Shown: positions 9,348 to 44,040 of the stretch, piece by piece
Layout: each line of letters begins with the position of its first letter
Numbering within the stretch: the first letter of the stretch is position 1
From: Aestuariivivens marinum
GTDB taxonomy: Bacteria > Bacteroidota > Bacteroidia > Flavobacteriales > Flavobacteriaceae
DNA length: 64,000 bases
Direction of reading: 5' to 3'
Assembly (NCBI RefSeq): GCF_022662175.1
Contig: NZ_JAKMCR010000001.1
Span: 806,001 to 870,000, forward strand
The notes under the pieces: generated by a model
What the model saw: the letters and a program-made list of their open reading frames with translations, nothing else
Told to the model about the DNA's origin: nothing
The model's database searches: none
Translations under genes and position numbers: made by a program

Positions 9348-9375
9348 TAGATGCTATTGTAAATAAAAGGTTGCG
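9348..9375 (-). promoter_or_regulatory. ECF-type promoter, copy B (lipoprotein-sigma-anti-sigma operon)
   Basis: On the minus strand CGCAACCTTTT (9375-9365), 11 bases, then CATCTA (9353-9348), 29 bases before the lipoprotein ATG. The same 17 fixed bases with the same spacing occur at 10484-10511 and 44013-44040. An AAC-containing -35 is the mark of ECF promoters. Its place before the sigma operon implies autoregulation. Confidence 0.8.
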
Positions 9376-9383
9376 CCAAAATC

Positions 9384-9414
9384 AAAAAAATCTCGAAATA
9401 TTTCGAGATTTTTT
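9384..9414. terminator. bidirectional intrinsic terminator after recA
   Basis: Near-perfect 15-bp palindrome centred at 9399/9400 (AAATCTCGAAAT / ATTTCGAGATTT, flanked by A and T runs), four bases past the recA stop. It also insulates recA from the ECF promoter that begins nine bases further on. Confidence 0.88.
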
Positions 9415-9418
9415 AATG

Positions 9419-10417
9419 CTATTCTTTTTTAAGGAGTTCCTTTATTTTGTCTTCCAACTCATCTAAAAGTTCTGGATTGTCTTTTATTATAGCTTTTACA
9501 GCATCCCTGCCTTGGCCAAGTTTAGTTTCACCATAGCTAAACCACGATCCACTTTTCTTAATGATTTCATGTTCTACCGCAACATCCAATACTTCACCTA
9601 CCTTAGAGATGCCTTCACCATACATGATGTCGAATTCAGCAGCTTTAAAAGGTGGTGCAACCTTGTTTTTAACCACTTTTACACGCGTTTTGTTCCCCAA
9701 TACATCTCCGTTACTATCTTTAATTTGGGTAGATCTTCTAATATCCAATCGAACCGAAGCATAGAATTTTAGTGCATTCCCTCCAGTAGTGGTCTCAGGG
9801 TTACCAAACATAACACCAATTTTTTCACGTAATTGATTAATGAAAATCACGGTACAATTGGTTTTACTAATAGATGCAGTAAGCTTTCTTAAAGCTTGAG
9901 ACATTAAACGCGCATGAAGTCCCATTTTAGAGTCGCCCATTTCACCTTCAATTTCACTTTTGGGAGTTAATGCAGCAACAGAATCAACGATAACAATATC
10001 TATGGCTCCAGAACGTATAAGGTTATCGGCAATCTCGAGTGCCTGTTCACCATTATCGGGTTGGGAAATGATTAAATTATCGATATCCACTCCTAACTTT
10101 TCAGCATAAAATCTATCAAAGGCATGTTCGGCATCAATAAAAGCGGCAATACCACCATTTTTTTGAGCCTCAGCTATAGCATGCAATGTTAAGGTGGTTT
10201 TACCTGAGGATTCCGGGCCATAAATTTCTATAACTCGGCCTCTTGGGTAGCCACCCACACCTAATGCAATATCCAATCCTAAAGAACCTGATGAAATGGC
10301 CTCTACATCTACAACTGCAGCATCGCTCATTTTCATAACAGTTCCTTTCCCATAAGCTTTATCCAACTTATCCAAGGTAAGCTTTAGGGCTTTTAATTTT
10401 GCTTCTTTTTCACTCAT
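9419..10417 (-). CDS. recA: recombinase RecA
   Basis: 332 residues. Walker [10 protein letters not shown] (about 68-76), Walker B region [10 protein letters not shown], the L1 and L2 loop neighbourhoods [14 protein letters not shown] and [15 protein letters not shown], and the C-terminal DNA-binding lobe ending acidic/basic [11 protein letters not shown]. Drives strand exchange in recombinational repair and SOS control. The start [20 protein letters not shown] is the usual flavobacterial one. Upstream, TACTTTAG is a one-mismatch -7 octamer at about 10446-10453. Confidence 0.98.
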
Positions 10418-10483
10418 TTATTTGTTGTTCTCTAGTTATACATGCTAAAGTAATATAACTTTTTTCAGAATACAATTTTATCA

Positions 10484-10511
10484 CGCAACCTTTTTACACA
10501 ATTTACATCTA
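10484..10511 (+). promoter_or_regulatory. ECF-type promoter, copy A (small transcript)
   Basis: CGCAACCTTTT (10484-10494), 11 bases, CATCTA (10506-10511). Identical fixed bases and spacing to the copies at 9348-9375 and 44013-44040. No annotated gene follows within 200 bases; instead a short transcript ending in an intrinsic terminator at about 10650 is predicted. Confidence 0.78.
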
Positions 10512-10516
10512 CTAAC

Positions 10517-10650
10517 TAAAAAAGGGAAAAATTTGCTATGAACATATTTGGTGTTTCAGGAGCTATCTGGTTAATGGCAACTGTAAAACCGCAGTGACTA
10601 ACTAAAAATAGTTAAAGAAAAGCACTTTAAGGTACTAAGGTGCTTTTTTT
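10517..10650 (+). ncRNA. candidate ECF-controlled small RNA (or tiny-ORF mRNA)
   Basis: Between the ECF-type promoter and the terminator lies about 130 nt without a normal gene. It contains a perfect stem TAACTA-AAAA-TAGTTA (10599-10614) immediately before the terminator stem, and several possible short helices (GGTT/AACC, ACTG/CAGT) in 10560-10597. A 19-codon frame, 10538-10597 (MNIFGVSGAIWLMATVKPQ), also fits, with hydrophobic middle. By analogy with sigma-E-driven RNAs in enterobacteria it may be a regulatory RNA, but no family is recognised and the 5' end is an estimate. Confidence 0.5.
10618..10650 (+). terminator. intrinsic terminator of the small transcript
   Basis: AAAAGCACTTTA (10618-10629) pairs with TAAGGTGCTTTT (10636-10647) with one G-U pair, followed by T residues. 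It ends 90 bases before trhO, which has its own -7 octamer. Confidence 0.82.
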
Positions 10651-10670
10651 ATGGGTTCCATTTAAAATTG

Positions 10671-10678
10671 TACTTTTG
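10671..10678 (+). promoter_or_regulatory. -7 element TACTTTTG for the trhO operon
   Basis: Perfect TAnnTTTG octamer downstream of the small-RNA terminator and 63 bases before the trhO ATG, so trhO is transcribed independently of the ECF promoter. Confidence 0.6.
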
Positions 10679-10741
10679 CGATTTAATACCAAATAAGGAT
10701 TGGTATATATAATTTCTTTAATCTTAAAATATTAGTATAGC

Positions 10742-11815
10742 ATGCAACTGTACAATACATTAAGTGCAAAAGAAAGGGCAACATTAATCGATAATGCGGG
10801 GCAGCATCGGTTAACACTTTCTTTTTATAAATATGCCAAAATTGGCAATCCCCAAGTTTTTAGGGATCATCTATTTATTACATGGCAGGCATTGGATGTT
10901 TTAGGTAGGATTTATGTAGCTTACGAAGGCGTTAATGCCCAATTATCGCTTCCTGCAGATCGGTTTAATGAGTTTAAAAATCATTTAGATTCTATAGGTT
11001 TTTTAAAAGATGTTCGGTTAAACATTGCTGTTGAACAGAATAATAAATCATTTTTAAAGCTTAAGGTAAAGGTCAGGAAAAAAATTGTTGCTGATGGTTT
11101 AAATGATGACACATTTGATGTAACCAACAAGGGTATTCATTTGGGAGCAAAAGCCTTTAATGAACTTATTGAAGATGAAAGCACTGTGTTGGTAGATATG
11201 CGTAACCATTACGAAAGTGAGATAGGTCATTTTAAAAATGCCCTAACACCCGATGTGGACACCTTTAGGGAATCGTTAGACATTATTGAAGCAGATTTAA
11301 AGGAGCATAAAGAATCCAAAAAATTGGTGATGTACTGTACGGGAGGGATTCGCTGTGAAAAAGCCAGTGCTTACTTCAAGCATAAGGGTTTTAAAAATGT
11401 ATATCAATTACAAGGAGGTATTATTGAATATACTAGGCAAGTAAAAGAGCAAGGACTTGAAAATAAGTTTTTGGGACAGAATTTTGTGTTCGACGACCGT
11501 CGTGCTGAACGTATTAGTAATGATGTCATTGCCAATTGCCATCAATGCGGGGAGCCTTTCGATGTGCACACCAATTGTGCCAACGATGCGTGCCACTTGC
11601 TCTTTATTCAATGTGATCAATGCAAGAAGGAAATGAACAATTGTTGTTCTACTACTTGTAAGGAGATAAACGCCTTGCCTTACGAAGAACAAAAGGCATT
11701 ACGCAAAGGGCAGGGCAATAGTAATGATATTTTCAAAAAAGGACGTGCTGGGCATTTGTTATATAAAAAAGATTTAAGGAACATTTTTGAAGTTTTAAAA
11801 ACCAATAAGAAATAG
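10742..11815 (+). CDS. trhO: oxygen-dependent tRNA uridine(34) hydroxylase TrhO (rhodanese family)
   Basis: 357 residues. N-terminal acylphosphatase-like part (FITWQALDVLGRIYVAYEGV), a rhodanese domain (about 130-235) with the active loop MYCTGGIRCEKA (Cys199 and Cys205), and a C-terminal Cys-rich zinc-like tail (CHQCGEPFD, CANDACHLLF, CDQCKKEMNNCC). Known members form 5-hydroxyuridine at tRNA position 34 using oxygen. Four bases separate it from a U32-family gene, followed by an overlapping ferredoxin gene, so all three are one operon likely serving wobble-uridine hydroxylation. Confidence 0.93.
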   Translation: MQLYNTLSAKERATLIDNAGQHRLTLSFYKYAKIGNPQVFRDHLFITWQALDVLGRIYVAYEGVNAQLSLPADRFNEFKNHLDSIGFLKDVRLNIAVEQNNKSFLKLKVKVRKKIVADGLNDDTFDVTNKGIHLGAKAFNELIEDESTVLVDMRNHYESEIGHFKNALTPDVDTFRESLDIIEADLKEHKESKKLVMYCTGGIRCEKASAYFKHKGFKNVYQLQGGIIEYTRQVKEQGLENKFLGQNFVFDDRRAERISNDVIANCHQCGEPFDVHTNCANDACHLLFIQCDQCKKEMNNCCSTTCKEINALPYEEQKALRKGQGNSNDIFKKGRAGHLLYKKDLRNIFEVLKTNKK

Positions 11816-11819
11816 AATT

Positions 11820-13064
11820 ATGCAGCAGATAGAATTAATGGCTCCGGCAGGCAATTTTGAATCCCTGCAAGCCGCCTTGGATAATGGAGCAAATTCAGTG
11901 TACTTTGGAGTAGAACAACTAAACATGCGTGCCAGAGCCTCCATCAACTTTACTTTAGATGACCTTCAGGAGATTTCAGACCGATGTAAAGAAAAAAACG
12001 TAAGGACATATTTAACCTTAAACACAATTATATACGATCACGATCTATCCATTATAAAAACCTTGATTGCAAAAGCGAAAGAGGCTGATATTACTGCTGT
12101 TATTGCTATGGATCAAGCAGTGATTATGGCAGCTCGTGAAGCAGGCATGGAGGTGCATATTTCAACACAAATCAATATTACCAATATAGAAACAGTAAAG
12201 TTTTATGCGCTATTTGCCGATACCATGGTATTGAGTCGGGAGTTAAGTTTACGCCAAGTAAAAAAGATTACCGAACAGATTGAAAAAGACCAAATAAAAG
12301 GCCCGTCTGGGAAATTGGTTGAGATTGAAATTTTTGGACATGGCGCATTATGCATGGCGGTATCTGGCAAATGTTACATGAGTTTACACTCTCAAAATTC
12401 ATCTGCCAACCGAGGCGCATGTAAACAAAATTGTCGAAAAAAATATACAGTCATCGATCAGGAAACGGGATTTGAAATGGAGTTGGATAATGAATATATT
12501 ATGTCTCCAAAGGATTTGTGTACAATTGATTTTTTAAATGAAGTTATAGAAGCAGGTATTAAGGTCTTAAAAATTGAAGGCCGTGGTAGGGCACCAGAAT
12601 ATGTAGCTAAAGTGATAAAGTGTTATCGAGAGGCGATTGACAGTTTATATGATGGTACATACGACAAAGCTAAGGTCATAGCTTGGATGCAGAATTTGGA
12701 AAAAGTGTATAACCGAGGATTTTGGAGCGGGTATTATCTAGGGCAGAAACTAGGTGAATGGAGTAAGGGTTCTGGTTCTCATGCCACACAGAAGAAAGTG
12801 TATTTGGGTAAAGGAGTGCACTATTTTCCAAAATCGGAAATAGGCGAATTTAAGATTGAAGCTTACGATATTGCCCTTGGTGATACCATTTTAATAACTG
12901 GGCCAACAACAGGAGCCAAAGAAGTTGAGCTAAAGGAAATGTTTGTAAATGACCAACGCTTGGAGAAAGCCACTAAAGGTGATTCGGTGACCATAAAACT
13001 GCCGTTTAGAATTCGCCCTTCTGATAAGTTGTATAAAGTGGTTGAAAATAAAGTAGAATTTTAA
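11820..13064 (+). CDS. U32 family protein, probable TrhP-like tRNA hydroxylation factor
   Basis: 414 residues. N-terminal TIM-barrel-like U32 region (ELMAPAGNFESLQAALDNGA; HISTQINITN) and the four cysteines C178, C185, C201 and C205 (GALCMAVSGKC, RGACKQNC) that hold a [4Fe-4S] cluster in TrhP, RlhA and UbiU/UbiV. Annotated as 'peptidase' in many genomes, but these relatives are hydroxylation factors. Lying four bases after trhO and overlapping a ferredoxin gene by one base favours TrhP (prephenate-dependent 5-hydroxyuridine in tRNA) over RlhA (23S rRNA C2501); sequence alone does not settle this. Confidence 0.85.
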   Translation: MQQIELMAPAGNFESLQAALDNGANSVYFGVEQLNMRARASINFTLDDLQEISDRCKEKNVRTYLTLNTIIYDHDLSIIKTLIAKAKEADITAVIAMDQAVIMAAREAGMEVHISTQINITNIETVKFYALFADTMVLSRELSLRQVKKITEQIEKDQIKGPSGKLVEIEIFGHGALCMAVSGKCYMSLHSQNSSANRGACKQNCRKKYTVIDQETGFEMELDNEYIMSPKDLCTIDFLNEVIEAGIKVLKIEGRGRAPEYVAKVIKCYREAIDSLYDGTYDKAKVIAWMQNLEKVYNRGFWSGYYLGQKLGEWSKGSGSHATQKKVYLGKGVHYFPKSEIGEFKIEAYDIALGDTILITGPTTGAKEVELKEMFVNDQRLEKATKGDSVTIKLPFRIRPSDKLYKVVENKVEF

Positions 13065-13294
13065 TGGTCGTTATTACGCTCCAAAGGCAAAAGTGTATTG
13101 GCTGTAACTATTGTGTGGAATTGGCACCACAGCAGTTTCAAATGTCCAAGAAAGATGGAAAATCAGTGTTATTACATTCAGCCGAAAAAAAAGGCTTTTT
13201 TACTTTAAAATCGAATGATGAAACCATATTGGATTCTTGTGAGAATGCATCAAAAGCTTGTCCAGTAAAAATCATTTCGGTAAAACATGTTTAA
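13064..13294 (+). CDS. 4Fe-4S ferredoxin
   Basis: 76 residues. CIGCNYC (first three cysteines) and a distant CENASKACPVKI give one [4Fe-4S] site with a possible extra Cys, typical of single-cluster ferredoxins. Its ATG uses the last base of the U32 stop (TAATG), showing translational coupling. Probable electron donor for the U32 iron-sulfur protein. Confidence 0.88.
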   Translation: MVVITLQRQKCIGCNYCVELAPQQFQMSKKDGKSVLLHSAEKKGFFTLKSNDETILDSCENASKACPVKIISVKHV

Positions 13295-13412
13295 GTATAT
13301 GGTTTGTTCTTTTTTAAGTACTGAGAATAATCATATATTTACAAAGGAAAATAAATTATGAACCTTCAGTTCGATATAAGTTAATTATTATCGAATTCAA
13401 CATATAAACTAT

Positions 13413-14600
13413 ATGGCTTGTAACAGTTGTTCAACTGGAAAAGACGGTCAACCCAAAGGATGTAAAAACAATGGCACTTGTGGCACGGATAGTTGTAATA
13501 AACTAACGGTATTCGATTGGCTGTCTAATATGTCGCTGCCTAATGGTGAAAAACCATTTGATTGGGTAGAGGTACGTTACAAAAACGGTAGAAAGGAATA
13601 CTACAAAAATACAGAGAATTTATCCCTTTGTATTGGTGATATTGTGGCTACTCAGGCTCAATCAGGACATGATGTGGGAATGGTTACCCTTACGGGAGAA
13701 CTGGTGCGTATTCAAATGAAACGCAAGAACATAAGTGTTAGTAATGACGGTGCCTTAAAGATTTACCGAAAGGCCTCTCAAAAGGATATTGATATTTGGT
13801 CAGCCGCCCGCGATAAGGAAGAATCCATGAAGGTTAAGGCTAGACAGTTTGCAATAGATTTAAAATTGCAAATGAAGATTTCCGATATCGAATTTCAAGG
13901 CGATGCCAGTAAAGCTACATTTTACTACACTGCAGAAGAGCGCGTCGATTTTCGTGAGCTTATCAAGGTGTTTGCCCGTGAGTTTAGAATCCGTATTGAA
14001 ATGAAACAGGTAGGATTTCGCCAGGAAGCATCAAGATTGGGTGGGATTGGATCCTGTGGTCGTGAATTATGCTGTTCTACTTGGTTAACCGATTTCCGTT
14101 CGGTAAGCACATCGGCAGCAAGATATCAGCAGTTGTCGTTAAATCCACTTAAATTGGCTGGACAATGCGGTAAATTAAAATGTTGCTTAAATTATGAGTT
14201 GGATACCTATTTGGATGCCCTGAAGGAATTTCCTAAAACCGATATTAAGTTACAGACTGAAAAAGGTATAGCTATTTGTCAAAAGATTGACATTTTTAAG
14301 GGCTATATGTGGTATGCTTATGAAGGCGAATGGATGAACTGGCATAGAATTACTGTAGAACAGGCTAATGAGATAATAGGATTCAATAAAAAGGGCAAAA
14401 CCGTTACTAGTCTGGAAGAATATGTTTCAGATGTTATTGAAGATACTAAAACCGAATTTGAAAACGTTGTAGGTCAAGATAGTTTAACGCGTTTTGATAA
14501 TCCAAAACGGAATAGAAAACGTAAAAATAGTAGGAACAGAAACAATAGAAATAAAAATAGAAGAAAGAAACCCCTAAACAGTAAAGATGCGTCTAAGTAG
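13413..14600 (+). CDS. PSP1-domain protein, RicT/YaaT homologue
   Basis: 395 residues. Cys-rich N-terminus (CNSCSTGKDGQPKGCKNNG), then the PSP1 domain (about 150-300) with the conserved cysteine set GSCGRELCCSTWL and LAGQCGKLKCCLNYE. In Bacillus RicT is part of an iron-sulfur complex that affects RNA maturation. The C-terminus (about 370-395) is a basic Arg/Asn/Lys tail (RNRKRKNSRNRNNRNKNRRK), consistent with nucleic-acid contact. Its 3' end overlaps gldH by 14 bases, an order conserved in gliding Flavobacteriaceae. Confidence 0.88.
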   Translation: MACNSCSTGKDGQPKGCKNNGTCGTDSCNKLTVFDWLSNMSLPNGEKPFDWVEVRYKNGRKEYYKNTENLSLCIGDIVATQAQSGHDVGMVTLTGELVRIQMKRKNISVSNDGALKIYRKASQKDIDIWSAARDKEESMKVKARQFAIDLKLQMKISDIEFQGDASKATFYYTAEERVDFRELIKVFAREFRIRIEMKQVGFRQEASRLGGIGSCGRELCCSTWLTDFRSVSTSAARYQQLSLNPLKLAGQCGKLKCCLNYELDTYLDALKEFPKTDIKLQTEKGIAICQKIDIFKGYMWYAYEGEWMNWHRITVEQANEIIGFNKKGKTVTSLEEYVSDVIEDTKTEFENVVGQDSLTRFDNPKRNRKRKNSRNRNNRNKNRRKKPLNSKDASK

Positions 14601-15072
14601 AGTATACCTTATTTTGTTTTCTTTTGCTTTAATGATGGTTTCTTGCGATTCCAATCGTGTTTTTGATGAGTATAAATCAGTACCCAACGTCTGGCATAAG
14701 GATTCTATAGCCAGTTTTAAAATAAACCCGCCAGATTCAATAAACCCATATAATCTGTTTGTTAATTTAAGAAATACCAATGTCTATAAATACAATAATT
14801 TGTTCTTAATTGTTGAGATGGTATTCCCACACGGTAAGACCATAGCAGATACGTTGGAATACAAAATGGCAGACCCAAGCGGTAAATTATTGGGAACAGG
14901 ATTAACCGATATTAAAGAAAATAAATTGTGGTATAAGGAAGGGGTGGTGTTTAAAGAAGTTGGTGAGTATACCGTTAACATACAGCACGCCATGCGCGAA
15001 AATGGAAAAGTAAATGGTGTTGTAGAACTGGAAGGTGTTACAGATGTAGGTTTTAGAATAGAAAAGCCATAA
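14587..15072 (+). CDS. gldH: gliding motility lipoprotein GldH
   Basis: 161 residues with lipoprotein signal peptide ending MMVSCDSN (lipid Cys at 20). The mature part (VFDEYKSVPNVWHKDSIASF; NPYNLFVNLRNTNVYKYNNL; MADPSGKLLGTGLTDIKENK) matches GldH, which is needed for gliding and stability of the type IX secretion/gliding machinery. Starts inside ricT (14-base overlap) and is followed by pbp1A after 55 bases. Its presence suggests a gliding or T9SS-bearing relative, though GldH alone does not prove movement. Confidence 0.93.
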   Translation: MRLSRVYLILFSFALMMVSCDSNRVFDEYKSVPNVWHKDSIASFKINPPDSINPYNLFVNLRNTNVYKYNNLFLIVEMVFPHGKTIADTLEYKMADPSGKLLGTGLTDIKENKLWYKEGVVFKEVGEYTVNIQHAMRENGKVNGVVELEGVTDVGFRIEKP

Positions 15073-15127
15073 AACACCAATTAACTTTAAAATACTTAAG
15101 GCACTTATAATTTTAGGCACTTTAGTT

Positions 15128-17473
15128 ATGGCGAAAATAAAAAAACAAACCTCAAAGAACCAGGACTTTTCAAAATACATTCGTTGGTTTTGGATGTTGT
15201 TTTTAGCTGGAATAGTTTCAATAGTAGTATTATTCTTGGTTGCTTCATGGGGATGGTTAGGGGAACTGCCAGACCATACTGTTTTAGAAAACCCTAAAAC
15301 TAATTTGGCGACAGAAATTATTTCTTCAGATGGAGAAACACTTGGAAAATTTTATTATGATGATAATAGAACACCTGTAGGTTTTGATGAGTTGCCCAAA
15401 CATTTAGTTGAAGCCTTAATAGCTACCGAAGACGCTCGGTTTCATGACCATTCTGGAATAGATGCTCGAGGTACCTTACGTGCGGCTGTTATGTTGGGCA
15501 GTGGTGGTGGAGCTAGTACTATATCTCAACAATTGGCAAAACAGTTATTTACCAAACAAGTTTCAAAAAGTAAACTGGAGCGTGCTTTTCAAAAAGTAAG
15601 GGAATGGGTTATCGCTACCCGTTTGGAACGTCAATACACCAAAGAGGAAATCATCGCTCAATACTTTAATATTTACGATTTTCTTAATAATGCAGATGGT
15701 ATTCGCAGTGCAGCCCGTATCTATTTTGGCAAGGAACCTTGGGATTTGGAGTTAAAAGAATCTGCTATGTTGGTAGGGATGTTTAAAAACTCGGCACTTT
15801 ATAATCCTCGTGTTAGACCTGAAATTACAAAGGATAGACGCAATGTGGTATTGGCCCAAATGGAAAAGTATGGGTACATTACTGTACAGGTAAAAGATTC
15901 TTTACAGAAAACGGAGTTGGATTTAAACTATACACCAGAATCACATAGAGAAGGTATAGCGACTTATTTTAGGGAGTACTTAAAAACCTTTATGAAAGAT
16001 TGGATTGAAAAAAATCCTAAGCCCGATGGAACTAAATGGAGTTTGTACAATGATGGATTAAAAATATATACTACTATCGATTCACGTATGCAGCAACATG
16101 CCGAAGATGCAGTTCAACAACACATGCCAAGGTTACAGGCCGAATTTTTCCACCAAAACACACCAAAGCGTAACCCCACAGCACCATTTTTAGAGTTGAC
16201 GACAGGAGCTATAGATACTTTATTGTTGCGTGCTATGCGACAAACCAAGCGTTGGAATAGGATGAAATACGATTTAAAAAAGAGCAATGAAGAAATAGAA
16301 CAATCTTTTTTTAAGCCTGTACAGATGACGGTTTTTGAATGGAAGGATGGAAAAGCTTCAGAAAAAGACACCATTATGAAACCCATTGACTCCATGCGTT
16401 ATTATAAATCGTTTTTAAGAACAGGTATGATGTCCATGGATCCGCAAACAGGCCATGTAAAAGCTTGGGTTGGAGGCATTAATTACAGACACTTTCAATA
16501 CGATATGGTCAAGCAAGGGAAACGCCAAATAGGATCAACTTTTAAACCGTTTGTATATACAGCGGCGATAGATCAATTGCATTTGTCACCTTGCGATGAA
16601 ATACCTGATACGCCGTTTTGTATAGAAAAGAACAAGTATGGAAACCCAGAAGAATGGTGTCCTAAAAATTCTGATGACGATTATGGTGGGGTACGCACTT
16701 TAAAAAATGCTTTGGCGAATTCTGTAAATACGGTTACTGCTCGATTGATAGATAAAGTAGGTCCATTGCCAGTAAAAGAATTAGCAGAAAAGTTGGGTGT
16801 CGAATCTAATATTCCACCTGTGCCATCCATTGCGCTAGGAACTCCAGATTTAAGTGTTTACGAAATGGTAGGGGCTTATGCTGCTTTTGCCAATAAAGGT
16901 GTGTACACCAAACCTGTTATGGTCATGCAGATTGAAGATAAAAACGGAACCATTTTGTATCAATTTAAACCCAATACCCGTGACGTGTTAAGTGAGGAAA
17001 CAGCCTATGTAACCGTAAAGCTGTTAGAGGGGGTTACACAATATGGATCAGGGGTTCGTTTAAGAACCAAAGGAGCAGATGCTTATAGGCCAGATTATAA
17101 GGAAATTGCAACCGGATATCCTTATGAATTTACCAATCCTATAGCTGGAAAGACGGGAACCACACAAAACCAAAGTGATGGTTGGTTTATGGGTATGGTA
17201 CCTAATTTAGTAACTGGTGTATGGGTAGGAGGAGAAGATCGAGCTGTTCATTTTTCATCTATTACTTATGGTCAAGGAGCAGCTATGGCCTTACCAATAT
17301 GGGGTTTGTATATGAAAAGTTGTTATGCCGATGAGGAGCTAAACATCTCTAAGGATGAATTTGAACCACCTGCAGCCCTTTCTATAATTGTAGATTGTTC
17401 AGAGGAAGGGAAGAGCACTATTATTGATGATATCCAAGAAGAGGCTGTTCCCGAGGGATTGGATTTTAATTAA
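15128..17473 (+). CDS. class A penicillin-binding protein (PBP1A type)
   Basis: 781 residues. Cytoplasmic basic N-terminus, one transmembrane helix (about 22-42), GT51 glycosyltransferase (about 70-245) with ATEDARFHDHSGID and STISQQLAKQLF, a linker, and a transpeptidase domain with SxxK at Ser470 (GSTFKPF), SVN in ANSVNTVTARL, and KTGT at Lys675 (GKTGTTQNQSDGW). Polymerises and crosslinks peptidoglycan. Same operon as ricT and gldH. The long insert at about 340-430 between domains is common in Bacteroidota PBPs. Confidence 0.95.
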   Translation: MAKIKKQTSKNQDFSKYIRWFWMLFLAGIVSIVVLFLVASWGWLGELPDHTVLENPKTNLATEIISSDGETLGKFYYDDNRTPVGFDELPKHLVEALIATEDARFHDHSGIDARGTLRAAVMLGSGGGASTISQQLAKQLFTKQVSKSKLERAFQKVREWVIATRLERQYTKEEIIAQYFNIYDFLNNADGIRSAARIYFGKEPWDLELKESAMLVGMFKNSALYNPRVRPEITKDRRNVVLAQMEKYGYITVQVKDSLQKTELDLNYTPESHREGIATYFREYLKTFMKDWIEKNPKPDGTKWSLYNDGLKIYTTIDSRMQQHAEDAVQQHMPRLQAEFFHQNTPKRNPTAPFLELTTGAIDTLLLRAMRQTKRWNRMKYDLKKSNEEIEQSFFKPVQMTVFEWKDGKASEKDTIMKPIDSMRYYKSFLRTGMMSMDPQTGHVKAWVGGINYRHFQYDMVKQGKRQIGSTFKPFVYTAAIDQLHLSPCDEIPDTPFCIEKNKYGNPEEWCPKNSDDDYGGVRTLKNALANSVNTVTARLIDKVGPLPVKELAEKLGVESNIPPVPSIALGTPDLSVYEMVGAYAAFANKGVYTKPVMVMQIEDKNGTILYQFKPNTRDVLSEETAYVTVKLLEGVTQYGSGVRLRTKGADAYRPDYKEIATGYPYEFTNPIAGKTGTTQNQSDGWFMGMVPNLVTGVWVGGEDRAVHFSSITYGQGAAMALPIWGLYMKSCYADEELNISKDEFEPPAALSIIVDCSEEGKSTIIDDIQEEAVPEGLDFN

Positions 17474-17490
17474 GTCTTCCGTCCTACAGT

Positions 17491-36248: not shown

Positions 36249-37818
36249 AATTATAAGAATCGGCACACGCGATAGTGAATTGGCATTATGGCAAGCCAAA
36301 ACTGTACAGCAACAACTCGAGCATTTAGGATATAAAACTAAATTAGTTCCTGTAAAGTCTACCGGAGATATTGTTTTGGATAAGCCTCTTTACGACTTAG
36401 GTATTACAGGTATTTTTACACGTACTTTAGATATCGCAATGCTCAACCACGATATTGATATTGCAGTACATTCCCTTAAAGATGTTCCTACTGTTTTACC
36501 AAAGGGTATTGCTCAGGTGGCTGTTTTGAAACGAGGAAATGTTAACGACACTTTGGTTTTTAAAACCAATGAAGAATTTTTAGGTGCCAAACATGCGGTT
36601 ATTGCTACAGGAAGTTTACGTCGTAGAGCCCAATGGCTTAACCGATACCCTACACATACTGTTGAAGACTTAAGGGGGAATGTAAACTCCAGATTGCAAA
36701 AACTAAAGAAAAATACCCACTGGGACGCTGCTATTTTTGCTGCAGCGGGTATTGGTAGAATAGGTATTCGTCCAGAGCAATCTATTAACCTTAACTGGAT
36801 GGTACCAGCACCTGCACAAGGCGCTATTATGATAACGGCTTTGGCAGAAGATGAATTTGTAAGATCTGCTTGTGCGGAATTAAATCATGAGGAAACCGAA
36901 ATTTGTACCACTATTGAACGTGAGTTTTTAAACAAATTGGAAGGTGGTTGTACAGCACCCATTGGAGCCTTGGCACAAATAAAAAATGATGAAGTGTCCT
37001 TTAAAGGCGTTCTACTAAGTATCGATGGTTCTAAGAAAATAGAAGTCTCACGAGTTGAAAAATTGGGTAAACATAAAGATTTGGCCTCCTTTTGTGCCAA
37101 TTATATTATAGAACGTGGGGGCAAGCGTTTAATGGATTCAATAAAGCAATCCAATAAAACCGTAAATTTATATTCTACAAAATCGCTTAGTGAAGAACAA
37201 AGGGTGTTACTGCATGAAAAAGTGGTGGTCGAAAGTAGTGATTTCATAAAAATAAGCTTAAACCGCATTCATCCACAGGTAATAAAAAATGAAATACAAA
37301 ATGTTATCATTACGAGTAAAAATGCTGTAGAAGCACTATTGAACAATTTTTCTGTTACCGAATTGCAGTTCAAAAATATTTATTGTGTGGGTCGTAGGAC
37401 GAAAAGATTAGTTGAAAATAGAATAGGCGCAGTAAAACATGCAGAAAAAAATGCCAAAAAGCTAGCCGAATATTTGGTTGAGTTTATAGATGGTACCGAA
37501 GTAACCTATTTCTGTAGTGATTTAAGGTTGGATGATTTGCCCAATATTCTGGAACAAAACCATATTAAGGTTAACGAAGTTGAAGCCTACCAGACCAAAT
37601 ATGATGGTGCTAAAGTAGATGATACTGTTGAAGGCGTTATGTTTTATAGCCCATCTACAGTTGAAAGTTATGTGAAAAAAAACCCTAAAGAGATTATTGC
37701 GTTTTGCATAGGGGAAACAACCGCCAAAGAAGCACAAAAACATTTCAGTGATGTAAGGATTGCTAAAGTTCCTACTGTAGAAAGTGTGATTGAGTTAGTG
37801 AACGAACATTATATATAA
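36241..37818 (+). CDS. hemC: hydroxymethylbilane synthase fused to uroporphyrinogen-III synthase (HemC-HemD)
   Basis: 525 residues, against about 310 for HemC alone. The HemC part (1-300) has IRIGTRDSELALWQA, ATGSLRRRAQWLNR and the cofactor-bearing Cys237 in NKLEGGCTAPIGA. The tail (about 310-525) has the loose two-lobe HemD pattern: VIITSKNAVEALLNNF, NIYCVGRRTKRLVENRI, YFCSDLRLDDLP, VMFYSPSTVESYV, FCIGETTAKEAQ. No separate hemD occurs in this otherwise rather complete cluster, which supports the fusion. It should turn porphobilinogen into uroporphyrinogen III in one protein. Confidence 0.92.
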   Translation: MSKIIRIGTRDSELALWQAKTVQQQLEHLGYKTKLVPVKSTGDIVLDKPLYDLGITGIFTRTLDIAMLNHDIDIAVHSLKDVPTVLPKGIAQVAVLKRGNVNDTLVFKTNEEFLGAKHAVIATGSLRRRAQWLNRYPTHTVEDLRGNVNSRLQKLKKNTHWDAAIFAAAGIGRIGIRPEQSINLNWMVPAPAQGAIMITALAEDEFVRSACAELNHEETEICTTIEREFLNKLEGGCTAPIGALAQIKNDEVSFKGVLLSIDGSKKIEVSRVEKLGKHKDLASFCANYIIERGGKRLMDSIKQSNKTVNLYSTKSLSEEQRVLLHEKVVVESSDFIKISLNRIHPQVIKNEIQNVIITSKNAVEALLNNFSVTELQFKNIYCVGRRTKRLVENRIGAVKHAEKNAKKLAEYLVEFIDGTEVTYFCSDLRLDDLPNILEQNHIKVNEVEAYQTKYDGAKVDDTVEGVMFYSPSTVESYVKKNPKEIIAFCIGETTAKEAQKHFSDVRIAKVPTVESVIELVNEHYI

Positions 37819-37821
37819 TTA

Positions 37822-37901
37822 TCATTACTAGTAACATAGCGACAAGCTAAACTATACAAATAAACCGATTGCCAAAGCAAATTTTTTTTGCTTTGCAATG
37901 A
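37822..37901. repeat. decayed copy of the metG/mfd palindromic element
   Basis: In the hemCD-hemE gap, TCATTAC (37822), GCGAC (37839), GATTGC (37867) and GCAATGA (37895) appear in the same order as in the metG element, with the first two spacings identical (17 and 28 bases). Near the right end an inverted repeat around TTTGC/GCAAA can fold. Confidence 0.65.
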
Positions 37902-37915
37902 CTTTAAAATAAAAT

Positions 37916-38941
37916 ATGATAAAAAACGATTTATTTTTAAGAGCATTAAAAGGAGAAACTGTCAATCGCCCTCCTGTTTGGATGATGCGTCAAGCAGGAC
38001 GATATTTACCTGAATTTATGGCTATTCGTGAAAAATACGACTTTTTTACTAGATGTCGAACACCAGAATTAGCTAGTGAAATTACGGTACAACCTATTCG
38101 TCGTTATGGTATGGATGCTGCCATATTGTTTAGTGATATTTTGGTCATTCCCCAAGCGATGAATATTGAGGTACAAATGAAACCTAACTTTGGTCCTTAT
38201 TTACCAAATCCTATACGTACTTCTAAAGATGTAAATGAGGTTATTGTTCCAGACGTAACCGAAGAATTGGATTATGTTTACCAAGCTATAAAAGCAACCA
38301 AGGAATTATTAAAAGATGAAATTCCATTGATTGGTTTTGCTGGTTCACCGTGGACCATCCTATGCTATTGTGTGCAAGGACAGGGTAGTAAGACCTTCGA
38401 TAAAGCTAAGGAGTTTTGTTTTACTAATCCCATAGCTGCCCATCAATTGCTTCAAAAAATAACTGACACCACCATCGCTTATTTAAAGGAGAAAGTAAAA
38501 GCTGGCTGTAATGCCGTTCAGGTTTTCGATTCATGGGGAGGTATGCTAAGCCCTGCAGATTATCAAGAGTTTTCTTGGCAATACATTAATCAAATTATTG
38601 AAGCCTTAAAAGATGAGGCACCCGTAATTGCCTTTGGTAAAGGGTGTTGGTTTGCTTTGAACGATATGGCTAAATCCAACGCTTCGGCATTGGGCATTGA
38701 TTGGACATGCTCTGCACGTAATGCACGTTATTTAACAGGAGGAAAGATTACGTTACAAGGTAATTTTGATCCAGCTCGGTTATTGTCCCCGCCTTCTGAA
38801 ATAAAGCGTATGGTACATCAAATGATAAATGAGTTTGGAAAGGATAAATACATTGTGAATTTAGGTCACGGGATTTTACCCAATGTACCATTGGAAAACG
38901 CCAAAGCCTTTATTGATGCTGTAAAAGAATACCATGCTTAA
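37916..38941 (+). CDS. hemE: uroporphyrinogen decarboxylase
   Basis: 341 residues. Signatures [18 protein letters not shown] near the start, [19 protein letters not shown], and [20 protein letters not shown]. Decarboxylates uroporphyrinogen III to coproporphyrinogen III. Overlaps the EI24 gene by eight bases. Confidence 0.96.
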
Positions 38942-39695
38942 AAACATAGTTATAGGAATTAAAGCCTATTTTGGTGTCTTTGGGTTGATTTCGAAACTCA
39001 AGCTCTGGAAATATTTTGCAGTTCCTATGCTAATAAGTTTTGTAACGGCAGTAGCTATTTTTGGAGTGGCCTATGGACTATCCGATAATATGGGCATTTT
39101 AATTTCAAAAATTTGGATATGGGAATGGGGAAAAAACACTTTTATAACCATTAGTAATATTCTTGGGGCATTGATCATAATTGTTATTGGCTTAATCCTC
39201 TTTAAACACATTATTATGGCATTATCAGCACCATTTATGAGCCCGGTATCTGAAAAAATAGAAGCTTATTTAACAGGAAGCACATCACTTTCACACAGAA
39301 ATACGACGTTTTTGCAACAGTTATGGCGAGGTATTCGTATTAACGGCAGGAATTTGTTCATGGAGTTGCTGTTAACCATTCCTATTTTATTATTGAAGTT
39401 TATTCCTGTGGTTAATATTTTTTCAACGGTTCTCTTGTTTTTGGTGCAGTCCTATTATGCTGGTTTTGGTAATATGGATTACACTTTAGAACGTCATTTT
39501 AGGTATGGAGAAAGTTTGAAATTTGTTCGACAGCATAGAGGTCTAGCCATAGGCAATGGCATTGTATTTATATCACTATTAATAATACCTTTAATTGGGG
39601 TTATTTTGGTATTGCCCCTTTCGGTTACAGCAGCTTCGTTAAAAACAGTTGAGGCATTAGAACTAAAACACAATCCCAATGCTACTTCGTTTTGA
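38934..39695 (+). CDS. EI24-domain integral membrane protein (CysZ-like)
   Basis: 253 residues, four to five membrane helices ([78 protein letters not shown]). Matches the EI24/CysZ fold, whose CysZ branch moves sulfate. Located between hemE and a GNAT gene with overlaps at both ends (8 and 17 bases), so cotranscribed with the heme genes; any role in heme synthesis is unproven. Confidence 0.8.
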
Positions 39696-40224
39696 AAACT
39701 ACTATATAGTACCTATTCAAATTAAGGATGCATATCCCATTTATGATTTTGTTATAGATAATGAAGACCGACTAAAAAGGTATTTCCCTTTAACATTAAA
39801 GAAAAATTTAACACCTGAACTATCAAAGATTTTTGTTAAAAAAAAAGTAAGGAAGTTTCAGAAAAACAAGGAGTTTTTATTTACCATAAATGAAAATAAC
39901 ATCAAAGAATTGTTAGGGCTAATTTATTTAAAAGCACTAGATTGGAAGAATAAACATGGTGAACTGGCCTACTGTATTGGTCATCAATTTGAAGGTAAAG
40001 GTATTACAACAAAAGCAATAACGGTTTTAACTAATTATATATTTTCAAAATTCGATTTAAGAACCCTTAAGATTATAGTCCATAAAACAAATTTACCGAG
40101 TATACTAGTTGCTAAAAACTGTCATTTTACTTGGATTAAAACATTAAAAAATGAGCATACACCGCCAGGAGAAAAACCTCTCGATATGGAATTATATGAG
40201 CTTTATAAAACCATTCAACATTAA
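39679..40224 (+). CDS. GNAT-family N-acetyltransferase (RimJ/RimL type)
   Basis: 181 residues. Acetyl-CoA-binding strand ELAYCIGHQFEGKGITTKAI and later LRTLKIIVHKTNLPSILVAK, as in ribosomal-protein and spermidine acetyltransferases. Substrate unknown. Overlaps EI24 by 17 bases and is two bases before hemF. Confidence 0.86.
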   Translation: MLLRFENYYIVPIQIKDAYPIYDFVIDNEDRLKRYFPLTLKKNLTPELSKIFVKKKVRKFQKNKEFLFTINENNIKELLGLIYLKALDWKNKHGELAYCIGHQFEGKGITTKAITVLTNYIFSKFDLRTLKIIVHKTNLPSILVAKNCHFTWIKTLKNEHTPPGEKPLDMELYELYKTIQH

Positions 40225-40226
40225 AA

Positions 40227-41129
40227 ATGAAAACTAAATTCTACCAATACATACAGGATTTACAAGAAAGCATAACCTCAAAGTTGGAAGCAGTTGATGG
40301 TAAAGCAAAATTCATAGAGGATATCTGGGAGAGAAAAGAAGGTGGTGGTGGACGAACCCGTGTGATTGAAAATGGAGAGCTGTTTGAAAAAGGCGGGGTT
40401 AACATATCGGCCGTACATGGTAAATTACCTAAATCTATGCAGGCCTATTTTAAAGTGGGCGATGTCGATTTTTTTGCATGTGGGCTAAGTTTGGTTATCC
40501 ATCCTAAAAGCCCTATGGTGCCTACAGTGCATGCGAACTGGCGTTATTTTGAGATGTACGATGAAGATGGAAATATTGTTGATCAATGGTTTGGTGGCGG
40601 ACAGGATTTAACGCCTTATTATTTATTTGAAGCTGATGCCAAGCATTTTCATAAAGTTTGTAAAATGGCTTGTGATAAGCATAATCCAGAATTTTATCCT
40701 AATTATAAAGCACGTTGTGATGAGTACTTTTTTAATAATCACCGTGATGAGGCCCGTGGCATAGGAGGTTTGTTTTTCGATTACTGTAAGGCTTCGGAAA
40801 CCATGTCAATGAGTCATTGGTATGATTTTGTAACCGAAGTAGGCAACAGTTTTTTGGCGGCTTATGTGCCTATTGTAGAAAGACGTAAGGAGTTACCTTA
40901 TACAAAAGCCAATCGGGATTGGCAGGAAATTCGTAGAGGGCGTTACGTAGAATTTAATTTGGTCCATGATAAAGGGACCTTGTTCGGGCTAAAAACTAAC
41001 GGACGCATAGAAAGCATTTTAATGAGCTTACCGCCACATGTGCAATGGGTTTATAACCATCACCCAAAAGCTGGTAGTGAAGAGGAAAAACTAATTAACG
41101 TTTTAAAAACACCTATAGACTGGGTGTAA
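40227..41129 (+). CDS. hemF: oxygen-dependent coproporphyrinogen III oxidase
   Basis: 300 residues with the diagnostic DQWFGGGQDLTPYYLFEAD and VHANWRYFEMYDEDG, and VEFNLVHDKGTLFGLKTNGR. Oxidises coproporphyrinogen to protoporphyrinogen using oxygen, so the organism makes heme aerobically. Two bases after the GNAT gene. Confidence 0.96.
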   Translation: MKTKFYQYIQDLQESITSKLEAVDGKAKFIEDIWERKEGGGGRTRVIENGELFEKGGVNISAVHGKLPKSMQAYFKVGDVDFFACGLSLVIHPKSPMVPTVHANWRYFEMYDEDGNIVDQWFGGGQDLTPYYLFEADAKHFHKVCKMACDKHNPEFYPNYKARCDEYFFNNHRDEARGIGGLFFDYCKASETMSMSHWYDFVTEVGNSFLAAYVPIVERRKELPYTKANRDWQEIRRGRYVEFNLVHDKGTLFGLKTNGRIESILMSLPPHVQWVYNHHPKAGSEEEKLINVLKTPIDWV

Positions 41130-41134
41130 ACTTT

Positions 41135-41142
41135 TAACTTTG
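41135..41142 (+). promoter_or_regulatory. hemB -7 element TAACTTTG
   Basis: Perfect TAnnTTTG, 24 bases before the hemB ATG, just past the hemF stop. hemB can therefore be made independently of the upstream heme genes. Confidence 0.55.
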
Positions 41143-41166
41143 TACTTATAACTTTAACTTAATAGG

Positions 41167-42159
41167 ATGTATCCACTTAGAAGAAATCGCAGATTAAGAA
41201 CCAACCAAGCCATTCGTTCTTTAGTTCGAGAAACAATTATAACTCCAAACGACTTTTTAGTACCATTATTTGTTGTCGAGGGTAAAGGTGTAAAAGACGA
41301 AATTCCATCGATGCCTAATTATTTTCGTTATAGTTTAGATTTGCTTGAAAACGAAGTAAAAGAACTATGGAAATTAGGGTTAAAATCGGTATTACTATTC
41401 GTAAAAGTTCCTGACAATTTAAAAGACAATGCTGGTAAAGAAGCCTTAAATCCAAACGGATTGATGCAACGCGCCATTAAAACAGTAAAAAACGCTTGCC
41501 CTGATATGTTGGTGATGACTGATGTCGCTCTAGACCCCTATTCTGCTTACGGTCATGATGGCATTATTGAAAACGGACAAGTACTAAATGACGAAACTAC
41601 TGAAGTGTTAGCAGAAATGAGCATATCACATGCGCAAGCCGGAGCCAATTTTGTAGCTCCAAGTGATATGATGGACGGACGTATTTTAACCATCCGTGAG
41701 GCGTTAGATGACGAAGGCTTTATCAATACTGGTATTATGAGCTATTCTGCCAAATATGCTTCAGCTTTTTATGGGCCATTTCGTGATGCTTTGGACTCCG
41801 CGCCTGTAGATTTAGTTGATGTTCCAAAGGACAAAAAAACATACCAGATGGATCCTGCCAATCGGTTTGAGGCCATTCGGGAAACTGAAATGGATATTGA
41901 CGAAGGCGCCGATATTGTTATGGTAAAACCCGGGCTGTGTTATTTGGATATTGTTAGAGAAATTAGAAACGAAGTGGATGTGCCGGTAGCTGTTTATCAG
42001 GTGTCTGGTGAGTATGCCATGCTTAAAGCTGCTGCCGAAAGAGGTTGGTTAGATCACGATGCTGTTATGTTGGAGCAGGTTACTGCCATTAAACGTGCGG
42101 GAGCCGACATTATCGCTTCGTATTTTGCTAAGGATGTTGTGAAGCTATTTAACAGGTAA
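41167..42159 (+). CDS. hemB: porphobilinogen synthase (delta-aminolevulinate dehydratase)
   Basis: 330 residues. Schiff-base lysines in MSYSAKYASAFYGPFRDA and DIVMVKPGLCYLDIV. The metal site reads DVALDPYSAYGHDGI, i.e. Asp/Ala in place of the three zinc cysteines, so this is a magnesium-type enzyme. Condenses two aminolevulinates to porphobilinogen. Confidence 0.97.
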   Translation: MYPLRRNRRLRTNQAIRSLVRETIITPNDFLVPLFVVEGKGVKDEIPSMPNYFRYSLDLLENEVKELWKLGLKSVLLFVKVPDNLKDNAGKEALNPNGLMQRAIKTVKNACPDMLVMTDVALDPYSAYGHDGIIENGQVLNDETTEVLAEMSISHAQAGANFVAPSDMMDGRILTIREALDDEGFINTGIMSYSAKYASAFYGPFRDALDSAPVDLVDVPKDKKTYQMDPANRFEAIRETEMDIDEGADIVMVKPGLCYLDIVREIRNEVDVPVAVYQVSGEYAMLKAAAERGWLDHDAVMLEQVTAIKRAGADIIASYFAKDVVKLFNR

Positions 42160-42173
42160 GCTTTTAGAAAAAC

Positions 42174-42845
42174 CTACTTTATACCACCCCATTCATCGTA
42201 AAACTGCTCTAAAAACTGTTCCATATAAGCATGCCGTTTTTTAGCAATTTGCTTGCCCGTTTTGGTGTTCATTTTGTCCTTAAGAAGTAACAATTTTTCA
42301 TAAAAATGATTAATGGTGGGCGCTGTTGAGGTTTTGTATTCAGCTTCGCTCATATTAAGATTGGGCTTGGTCTCTGGGTTAAAAAGTGGCCTGTTTTTAA
42401 ACCCACCATAATTAAAGGCGCGAGCAATACCAATCGCACCAATCGCATCAAGCCTGTCTGCATCTTGAACTACTTTTAGTTCTTCGGAAACAAATAACAT
42501 GTCGTTACCGAGAGATTTATTGAATGATATATTTTCGATAATCTTTACCACATGTTCAATGGTTTGGGAATCCACATTCAATTGAAATAAAAATTCTCGT
42601 GCCATTTTAGGGCCGATGGTATCATCACCTTCGTGAAATTTACTATCGGCAATATCATGTAATAAGGCAGCCAATTCAACAACGAAAATATCCACTGTTT
42701 CTGTTTTTGAAATGAGCAAGGCATTATGGTACACCCGCAACGTATGAAACCAATCGTGTCCACCTTCGGCATTGGCCAGAGTTTGTTTTACAAAGGTTTT
42801 AGTTTTGCTAATAAGGGTTTTATGGTGTTCTTTATTAGTGCTCAA
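42174..42845 (-). CDS. HD-domain phosphohydrolase
   Basis: 223 residues. HDWFHTLRVYHNALL (His-Asp) and LAALLHDIADSKFHEGDD (second HD) make the metal site, then VQDADRLDAIGAIGIARAF. Predicted nucleotide or phosphate-ester hydrolase of the YedJ-like group; substrate unknown. Overlaps the acyltransferase gene by 11 bases. Confidence 0.87.
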   Translation of the reverse strand: MSTNKEHHKTLISKTKTFVKQTLANAEGGHDWFHTLRVYHNALLISKTETVDIFVVELAALLHDIADSKFHEGDDTIGPKMAREFLFQLNVDSQTIEHVVKIIENISFNKSLGNDMLFVSEELKVVQDADRLDAIGAIGIARAFNYGGFKNRPLFNPETKPNLNMSEAEYKTSTAPTINHFYEKLLLLKDKMNTKTGKQIAKKRHAYMEQFLEQFYDEWGGIK

Positions 42846-43578
42846 TGTAGATATGGTCTTTGATGGTGGTTTCTATTTGGGAAATTAAATCTAATTTATT
42901 TTCAAAATCCGATACCTTTAATGGTTTGTGTGCCGTATGCTTGATGTGTGTTCCCAATCCCATAGGAAACCATCCGTAACGTTGCATTTTCCAAGAGTTA
43001 TTAATTGAAATAGGCACAACCAAGGCCGATGGTACTTTTTTAAACAACATTTCCAGTCCTTTAGTTTGAAAGGGTTTGGGAATACCATTTTTACTTCGGG
43101 TACCTTCGGGAAAAATAACGGCTGCACGTTTGGTGGTTTCAATATATTCGGCAAATTTCATTATAGCAGGAAGGGATTGTCTTGGGTTTTGTCTATCGAT
43201 CAACACCGACCCCCCGTGACGCAAGTTGTAGGATACACTGGGGATGCCTTTACCTAATTCCTCTTTGCTTATAAATTTGGTATGGTGCTTTCGCATATAC
43301 CACATAATTGGTGATATATCGTATAAACTTTGGTGGTTGGCCACAATAATAAGTGGTTGCCCTGTGCTAATCTTATGAGGATTATTAAACGTAAACCGTG
43401 TACCTAATATATGAGTGCATTTTAAGAGACAAAATTGTAAAATATCGACACTAACTTTGTGGGCTTTGTAACCAAAAATGTTAAAACAAAACCATTGAAT
43501 AGGATGAAAAAAAACAAGGGTCAACCCAAATAATAGATAATAAATACTGGTTAAGGGATATGATAAAAGTTTTAACAT
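42835..43578 (-). CDS. lysophospholipid acyltransferase family protein
   Basis: 247 residues. Acyltransferase motifs NHQSLYDISPIMW (HX4D, about 82-88), SVLIDRQNPRQSL and FPEGTRSKNGIP (about 156-167), with an N-terminal membrane helix. A second PlsC-like enzyme beside the one at 6 kb; the two may prefer different acyl donors or substrates. Confidence 0.88.
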   Translation of the reverse strand: MLKLLSYPLTSIYYLLFGLTLVFFHPIQWFCFNIFGYKAHKVSVDILQFCLLKCTHILGTRFTFNNPHKISTGQPLIIVANHQSLYDISPIMWYMRKHHTKFISKEELGKGIPSVSYNLRHGGSVLIDRQNPRQSLPAIMKFAEYIETTKRAAVIFPEGTRSKNGIPKPFQTKGLEMLFKKVPSALVVPISINNSWKMQRYGWFPMGLGTHIKHTAHKPLKVSDFENKLDLISQIETTIKDHIYIEH

Positions 43579-43599
43579 GTCCCAAAAGTAAACTAAATA

Positions 43600-43995
43600 T
43601 TAGTACACAGCAACACAGGTGTTGTTTTCGCAAGTTATACTAGAAGGTTGTTGAACTAAAGCACAGTCTGAAGCAACGTTCCATCTTTGATTATAGGCTT
43701 GTTCCTTAGCATTATAATCTTGCACCATAGCTTCTAGAGCACTCACATCAATTGATGTTGAATAAATAAGATAGGACCAAGGTCCACCACAAGGTTTACT
43801 TCCAAAGGCAATAAATTTACATTCTGTAGTTTCATTACAAATCGATAAGTTGACCATAGCTTCAATCTCAGATTTAAAATCTTGTAATTGGGCAAGTTCT
43901 TGTTCTTGGGTTAACGGAGCATCATCATCGCATTGAAAAGCAGTAAAACTTAAACAAAGAAGAAGCAAAATAGCAGCAAAAAAAGAATTTTTCAT
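43600..43995 (-). CDS. small lipoprotein under the ECF-type promoter
   Basis: 131 residues. Signal MKNSFFAAILLLLCLSFTAF followed by QCDDD (lipid Cys22). The mature part has a pattern of cysteines (LSICNETTECKFIAF, KPCGG, SDCALVQQ, ITCENNTCVAVY) suggesting disulfides. The family is widespread in Bacteroidota but unnamed to me. Copy C of the ECF-type promoter lies 18 bases before the ATG, tying it to the sigma operon at 8-9 kb. A role in the outer membrane stress response is inferred only from that. Confidence 0.82.
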   Translation of the reverse strand: MKNSFFAAILLLLCLSFTAFQCDDDAPLTQEQELAQLQDFKSEIEAMVNLSICNETTECKFIAFGSKPCGGPWSYLIYSTSIDVSALEAMVQDYNAKEQAYNQRWNVASDCALVQQPSSITCENNTCVAVY

Positions 43996-44012
43996 AGCAA
44001 TTTTTTACCTAA

Positions 44013-44040
44013 TAGATGTTCATATAAAGAAAAGGTTGCG
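44013..44040 (-). promoter_or_regulatory. ECF-type promoter, copy C (lipoprotein at 43.6-44.0 kb)
   Basis: Minus-strand CGCAACCTTTT (44040-44030), 11 bases, CATCTA (44018-44013), 17 bases before the ATG. Same fixed bases and spacing as copies A and B. Confidence 0.8.

Follow-up and report, generated by a model that had tools for sequence, protein, structure and literature searches.

Introduction

In Escherichia coli, the extracytoplasmic function (ECF) sigma factor sigma-E, working with RseA, is an autoregulated envelope factor that drives the small RNAs MicA and RybB together with envelope proteins. For the ECF factors of Bacteroidota, promoter rules are to our knowledge mostly unassigned, and outer-membrane responses are little known in this phylum. 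Here, the motif CGCAACCTTTT-N11-CATCTA was analyzed, which occurs three times in a 64-kb stretch of DNA from Aestuariivivens marinum (hereafter the window, 64,000 nucleotides (nt) at its full length; contig NZ_JAKMCR010000001.1, positions 806,001 to 870,000), together with the ECF sigma operon that one of its copies precedes. We consider it very probable that these sites are the promoters of an envelope-stress switch in which an ECF sigma factor, coupled to a sensor predicted to reach both membranes, reads them as a very small regulon.

Switches of this kind are already known. As described in the parts of the source cited here, the Das/Dma system of Bacteroides thetaiotaomicron consists of an ECF sigma factor encoded beside an anti-sigma factor that has an N-terminal domain, one transmembrane helix, a disordered tether and a C-terminal barrel, and its own operon is a main target (PMC13088901). 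The same source reports that Dma proteins of Bacteroides, which have this domain order, adjoin ECF21 sigma factors (PMC13088901). A further mark of Dma proteins is that their deletion frees the sigma factor and raises vesiculation. Within the family to which the window belongs, promoter classes have been described in Flavobacterium psychrophilum as sigma motifs SM1 to SM6, of which SM6 was called ECF-like (Guerin et al. 2021, PMC9723704; cited from part of the text).

Results

An exact motif between genes in the window and the host genome

The initial annotation had claimed three identical intergenic sites with the same N11 spacing, and exact recounting agreed with it. The sites are:

9348 to 9375, minus strand: promoter-like site P1, exact motif, preceding the lipoprotein-sigma-anti-sigma operon
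10484 to 10511, plus strand: promoter-like site P2, exact motif, divergent from recA and preceding a small transcript
44013 to 44040, minus strand: promoter-like site P3, exact motif, preceding a Cys-rich lipoprotein gene

Their spacers differ, and no further site was found in the window at up to three mismatches. Dinucleotide-shuffled versions of the window gave a mean of 0.20 matches at that threshold and a largest value of 2, three being reached in 0 of 100 shuffles. The host genome (3,214,764 bases) contains four exact sites, the three of the window and one on another contig (G000:C11:2551-2578, plus strand) that precedes a GTG-started open reading frame (ORF) of 28 codons, while the reversed pattern, used as a control, had 0 matches there. 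A single site with two mismatches lies, as judged by eye, inside an AsnC/Lrp-like ORF. When the motif was relaxed to an 11-base core with up to one mismatch, the host genome gave 17 matches versus 26 for the reversed control, so that nothing credible was found there beyond the four exact sites.

All four fall between genes taken as real. Only mechanically listed ORFs on the opposite strand, of 69 and 75 amino acids (aa), touch the first and third window sites, respectively. The downstream features that had been claimed were likewise all present, namely the genes for the lipoprotein, sigma factor and anti-sigma factor, a short unit that a strong terminator hairpin closes, and the Cys-rich lipoprotein; transcripts would start at the three sites. 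A tRNA scan of the window found none. In the host genome, the 28-codon ORF at the fourth site is directly followed by repeated segments of the GTCACTGCGAG... type (L004:1650-2450, G000:C11).

Among family genomes, the exact motif occurs only in those with the sigma gene

Protein searches detected relatives of the sigma factor of the window (E ≤ 1e-30) in 169 of 199 Flavobacteriaceae genomes. The exact motif was present in 84 of the 199, and the reversed control in 0 of 199. Its distribution followed that of the sigma gene, with 84/169 sigma-bearing versus 0/30 sigma-lacking genomes containing it (Fisher p 1.1e-8, uncorrected for kinship; the overlap was compared by hand, and ten of the 30 sigma-lacking genomes were assigned by subtraction). 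The initial annotation had proposed a genome-wide search and a comparison with relatives lacking the sigma operon, and had held that many hits inside genes, or hits in genomes lacking the sigma factor, would speak against its reading; the search produced neither, the 30 family genomes without a relative of the sigma gene being devoid of the exact motif. In an order-level sample, exact sites were found in 12 of 30 Flavobacteriaceae versus 1 of 166 other genomes.

The 146 exact sites of the family were placed relative to the top sigma match listed per genome; such a position was listed for 149 genomes, including 82 of the 84 with the motif. Thirty-three sites lie upstream of the sigma gene on the same strand (31 at 453-507 nt, one at 151 nt and one at 804 nt). 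Another 55 are divergent from it, 52 of these at 1590-1810 nt, which in the usual gene order is beyond recA. The sigma/recA locus thus holds 88 of the 146 sites, and the other 58 are located elsewhere.

The sigma/recA locus and its probable operon promoter

The locus in the window contains the following genes in addition to P1:

8897 to 9319, minus strand: lipoprotein of 140 aa whose gene opens the sigma operon, with a predicted all-beta sandwich fold
8325 to 8867, minus strand: ECF sigma factor of 180 aa, TTG start as listed, Sigma70_r2 and r4_2 above the Pfam cut-off
6772 to 8325, minus strand: anti-sigma factor, Dma-type architecture according to an AlphaFold2 model and Foldseek
9419 to 10417, minus strand: recA, neighbour between P1 and P2 by conserved synteny, not claimed as a target

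The small size of the sigma protein and the presence of sigma-70 regions 2 and 4 only are those of an ECF factor, and its nearest named relative among the matches listed is from Aestuariivivens insulae (93% identity). The gene adjoins that of the anti-sigma factor; by this context, the protein would be Das/ECF21-like.

Conservation of the locus was assessed in 100 fetched sigma loci plus the window (set 1, 101 loci of about 4.5 kb each) and in 80 named loci that partly overlap them (set 2). In set 1, recA was found in 97 loci, a relative of the lipoprotein in 87 (by tblastn) and the anti-sigma gene in all 101, the usual order being recA - motif - lipoprotein - sigma - anti-sigma. The motif was detected on the sigma strand at up to three mismatches in 96 of the 101 loci; across these 96 operon sites neither CGCAACC nor ATC varies, and the T that follows the latter is kept at 98%. 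At the same threshold, 12 of the 14 loci that have recA and no detected lipoprotein retain the motif before the sigma gene. With up to two mismatches, set 2 showed the operon site in 72 and the divergent site in 65 of its 80 loci. An AAC in the upstream block is the hallmark of ECF -35 elements, and the operon sites pair an AAC-bearing -35 box with a -10 box at a constant distance, ahead of the sigma factor's own operon.

The lipoprotein that opens the operon has a cysteine, Cys17, that is invariant across 50 sequences; its AlphaFold2 model reached a mean predicted local distance difference test score (pLDDT) of 88, and comparison of this fold with the PDB gave no match at E ≤ 0.001. A link to DNA damage through recA was considered and set aside, synteny being its sole support.

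The anti-sigma factor resembles Dma

An AlphaFold2 model of the anti-sigma factor, built on 55 sequences, had a mean pLDDT of 66 and a predicted template modelling score of 0.50, with the barrel blocks mostly above 90. The model predicts two N-terminal helices (residues 6-16 and 24-35, block pLDDT about 62-78), a single transmembrane helix at 45-67, a disordered tether at 71-247 (pLDDT below 50) and beta-barrel strands within 272-515, the last three being features of Dma. Foldseek related the barrel to the small outer-membrane barrels OmpA, OmpW, NspA and Ail (E 2e-6 to 5e-5). As modelled, the protein looks like a dual-membrane-spanning anti-sigma factor of the Dma type.

The third window site and the candidate distal targets

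P3 precedes the following gene:

43600 to 43995, minus strand: Cys-rich lipoprotein of 131 aa, from the ORF list

This protein had no Pfam match over the cut-off and no NCBIfam match, and its relatives occur in 47 of the 199 family genomes (E ≤ 1e-10). Footprinting upstream of the best 30 lipoprotein loci, our own included and 18 weaker matches left out, found the motif at up to three mismatches in 24 of the 30 (7, 7, 9 and 1 loci at 0, 1, 2 and 3 mismatches, respectively). In shuffled 500-nt upstream windows, two or fewer mismatches were reached in 0 of 3000 trials and three mismatches in 2 of 3000. A bacilliredoxin-like gene, identified by eye, lies just upstream of P3 (44157-44567, minus strand), and the same neighbour was seen by eye in the loci of several relatives (L329, L332-L335).

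The 58 exact sites outside the sigma/recA locus, two of them from the host genome, are mostly followed by ORFs with envelope signatures. An ATG-started ORF of at least 25 codons begins within 120 nt of 53 of the 58, compared with 42% of random positions in the same loci. The downstream ORF has an N-terminal hydrophobic stretch at 47 of the 58 sites versus 12% of controls, and a simple lipobox at 26 versus 3%. The median distance to the ATG is 24 nt and the typical range 14-45 nt. By eye, the groups that recur are a 28-aa single-helix protein (11 members and four longer look-alikes), lipoproteins that are Cys-rich (n = 7, including that of the window), of about 408 aa (n = 5), of about 146 aa (n = 4) or of at least 591 aa (n = 2, both truncated by the end of the stretch read), and signal-peptide proteins (n = 4). 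The 28-aa ORFs (n = 11) differed pairwise by 0.288 at the first, 0.066 at the second and 0.516 at the third codon position, and by 0.65-0.69 downstream, which is a coding signature; a search of NCBIfam with the 28-aa protein found no model beyond a match to TatA at E 0.18.

Two other arrangements were seen in relatives. At L071 and L081 the motif lies ahead of a MiaE-like gene (by eye) at the longer distances of 114 and 153 nt. At L056 (G138:C71) two copies of the motif lie 222 nt apart; behind either copy stands the same segment, complete with a terminator hairpin, and the pair looks like a duplicated small RNA under this promoter.

A predicted divergent transcript beside recA

P2 faces away from recA and precedes three features:

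10518 to 10650, plus strand: predicted small RNA of about 130 nt, whose start was placed about 7 nt past CATCTA and whose end is the terminator
10538 to 10597, plus strand: ORF of 19 codons, read by eye as the decayed remnant of a gene, conserved in other genera, for a peptide of about 30 aa
10615 to 10650, plus strand: terminator of the small RNA, an intrinsic hairpin with a T-run, from the fold of the window RNA

The window RNA folds at -32.5 kcal/mol, an energy equalled by 0 of 200 shuffles; its z of -2.77 comes largely from the terminator, and a search of window positions 9300-10760 against Rfam found nothing at gathering level. For comparison, 145 loci with a divergent site were pooled from two overlapping sets, some genomes being counted twice. 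Of these, 75 have an ORF (69 distinct) that runs to 28-33 codons and closes with [DN][GD]G, typified by MKFFKKTIVNNALGVSVAIHINSNCKADGG; this ending is built in, as the peptide search demanded it. Among the 70 loci that failed this test are EGG-ending versions, seen by eye in Aquimarina-like loci (L128, L219, L254), and remnants. For 53 distinct 30-codon ORFs, pairwise differences at the three codon positions were 0.288, 0.245 and 0.428, and 0.58 evenly downstream, a pattern that amounts to a coding signature. Non-synonymous codon differences exceed synonymous ones (18731 vs 7455 pairs), and at peptide position 26 K stands in 50 of the 53 and R in the other 3. The peptide had no match in NCBIfam.

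In the lineage around the window, the peptide ORF is broken or gone. Peptide-less relatives retain the promoter, a terminator that shows compensatory changes, and the segments TTTGCTATGAAATTT and GACTAACTC, and the TTTGCTATGA and GACTAACT segments of the small RNA are also present in relatives. A consensus fold was computed from 44 distinct rows, drawn from the 47 of 70 peptide-less loci with a T-run in range and excluding the window RNA. Its energy of -11.2, versus 0.0 for column shuffles (a generous control), came entirely from the terminator; it supports that hairpin only, the upstream segments being conserved and unpaired. Eight of the 44 rows keep the conserved segment without its start codon, which favours an RNA function. 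The small structured RNA of the initial annotation would, as a refinement, derive from a gene that in many relatives specifies a conserved peptide of about 30 aa and has decayed here. The main text of PMC9723704, which covers flavobacterial small RNAs such as Rfp18, makes no mention of recA.

Related promoter-like sites outside the family

The regions upstream of the 19 best non-family sigma relatives, and of one Flavobacterium-like genome, were also inspected. A related form, GCAAC[CT]-N16-CATCTT, lies shortly upstream of the sigma match in 7 of the 19, and the Flavobacterium-like genome (L307) has CGCAACC-N14-CATCTA. To judge from these sequences, the promoter core is not unique to the family clade. 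A class-wide scan of 247 genomes is only supportive: when the listed N16 and sigma matches were compared by hand, at least seven N16 matches lay within 100 nt upstream of a sigma match on the same strand (G397, G447, G455, G520, G549, G550 and G592), four of them at loci already counted. At L292, a distant relative, two divergent N16 sites (G550:C282:2427, minus strand, and 2554, plus strand) lie about 130 nt apart beside the sigma gene, an arrangement that resembles the site pair flanking recA.

Discussion

The conserved motif, its co-distribution with the sigma gene, its conserved placement, the predicted barrel and the coding signatures of the tiny proteins, all read from sequence, point to a common mechanism. 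The sites would be -35/-10 promoter elements that the ECF sigma factor encoded at 8325-8867 recognises and binds, and their activity would depend on it. In the resting cell the sigma factor would be held by the anti-sigma factor at 6772-8325, one protein predicted to reach from the cytosol across the inner membrane and to end, beyond a disordered tether, in a beta-barrel lodged in the outer membrane. The presumed signal, a disturbance of this outer membrane, would free the sigma factor, and RNA polymerase would then transcribe the sigma operon with its lipoprotein, the small RNA divergent from recA, the Cys-rich lipoprotein and the 28-aa single-helix membrane protein. The system would behave much as Das/Dma does, as a switch for envelope stress. 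Co-occurrence, placement at the locus and the P3 footprints support the reading proposed in the initial annotation, namely ECF-type promoters, autoregulation and a shared regulon.

Several observations weigh against this mechanism. Exact matches are missing from 85 of the 169 sigma-bearing genomes; the sigma-lacking genomes are often small, and given kinship the 0/30 does not represent 30 independent events. The anti-sigma model is only moderate overall, at a mean pLDDT of 66. At 5 of the 58 distal sites no ATG-started ORF begins within 120 nt, a few targets, such as the two MiaE-like ones, seem to have no tie to the envelope, and 6 of the 30 lipoprotein loci have no motif, five of them with the same upstream neighbour (by eye). 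Outside the family, the N16 form is missing at 12 of the 19 loci, and in 5 of the 7 that have it (L298, L303-L306) the anti-sigma-like ORFs that follow span just 237-300 aa, which is too little for a Dma layout, so that the promoter class is not tied to that layout. Of the class-wide N16 matches listed, most lie away from any listed sigma gene, and matches to the reversed control were common there as well. Finally, 20 matches to sigma region 4 in the genome passed the cut-off, and assignment of the sites to the sigma factor at 8325-8867 therefore rests on location and co-distribution.

Those 20 matches leave room for ECF-class promoters that are read by another sigma factor, or by several with overlapping specificity, and overlapping ECF regulons are discussed for F. 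psychrophilum in the part of the text cited (Guerin et al. 2021, PMC9723704). We regard this as unlikely: the sites cluster at the sigma gene of the window and its relatives and are absent from genomes without it, no sigma-like ORF was seen by eye among the ORFs listed downstream of the 58 distal sites, and a related core precedes distant homologues of this same sigma factor in the seven cases described above. An operator bound by a regulator encoded elsewhere, which the long invariant boxes would also suit, is a good deal less probable still, as the motif is not palindromic, its two boxes keep one orientation and a start codon typically follows at 14-45 nt, and as the spacing in distant relatives differs by one base and the last base is changed. 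A one-base shift in spacing and a changed last base are what is expected for sigma promoters. Chance, or a repeat-borne sequence spread by duplication as the twin copies and shared downstream segment of L056 might suggest, can practically be dismissed, since the spacers of the window sites differ, control patterns gave 0 matches and the motif is kept at orthologous places.

Under the preferred reading, in which the sigma factor of the window recognises these promoters, one sigma factor, its likely sensor and its promoter could be linked across a family, and regulons would become predictable genome by genome; the work also points to two families of tiny proteins without an NCBIfam model and provides a testable outer-membrane sensing switch in Bacteroidota. 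A further-reaching and tentative proposal, which we hold to be possible rather than probable, is a Flavobacteriaceae-wide envelope stress system whose Dma-type anti-sigma factor controls a dual-function gene beside recA, together with the 28-aa single-helix protein. That gene would encode both a small RNA and a membrane-active or signalling peptide of about 30 aa ending in [DE]GG, the peptide having been kept in many genera and the gene having become a pure regulatory RNA in the lineage of the window. If true, sigma-E and its small RNAs would have a counterpart in Bacteroidota, whose promoter rule could be read from sequence throughout the family.

A search of the open-access literature by the letters of the motif found no description of such a promoter among the papers listed, and an earlier ECF21 promoter prediction may exist elsewhere. 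Within that literature, the promoter assignment, the small family-wide regulon with its 28-aa membrane protein, and the small-protein/RNA gene beside recA appear new. The sigma motifs of F. psychrophilum (TAnnTTTG for SM1-3, sigma-54 for SM4, TAnnTTGY for SM5 and a CGT box for SM6) are unlike CGCAACC...CATCTA when compared by their description, rather than their logos, in the text cited (PMC9723704). With sigma-E and RseA of E. coli the system would share an autoregulated envelope ECF factor that drives small RNA and envelope proteins, whereas the architecture of the anti-sigma factor and the promoter differ, and no homology is claimed. From Das/Dma, as far as the cited parts of its description go, it is set apart by its linkage to recA, its spread across Flavobacteriaceae and a proposed promoter sequence. 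The candidate regulon differs as well, being made up of a small RNA, tiny membrane proteins and lipoproteins, with a SusD-like gene, of the type found in polysaccharide utilization loci, as a target at just one of the 58 distal sites (L054, by eye).

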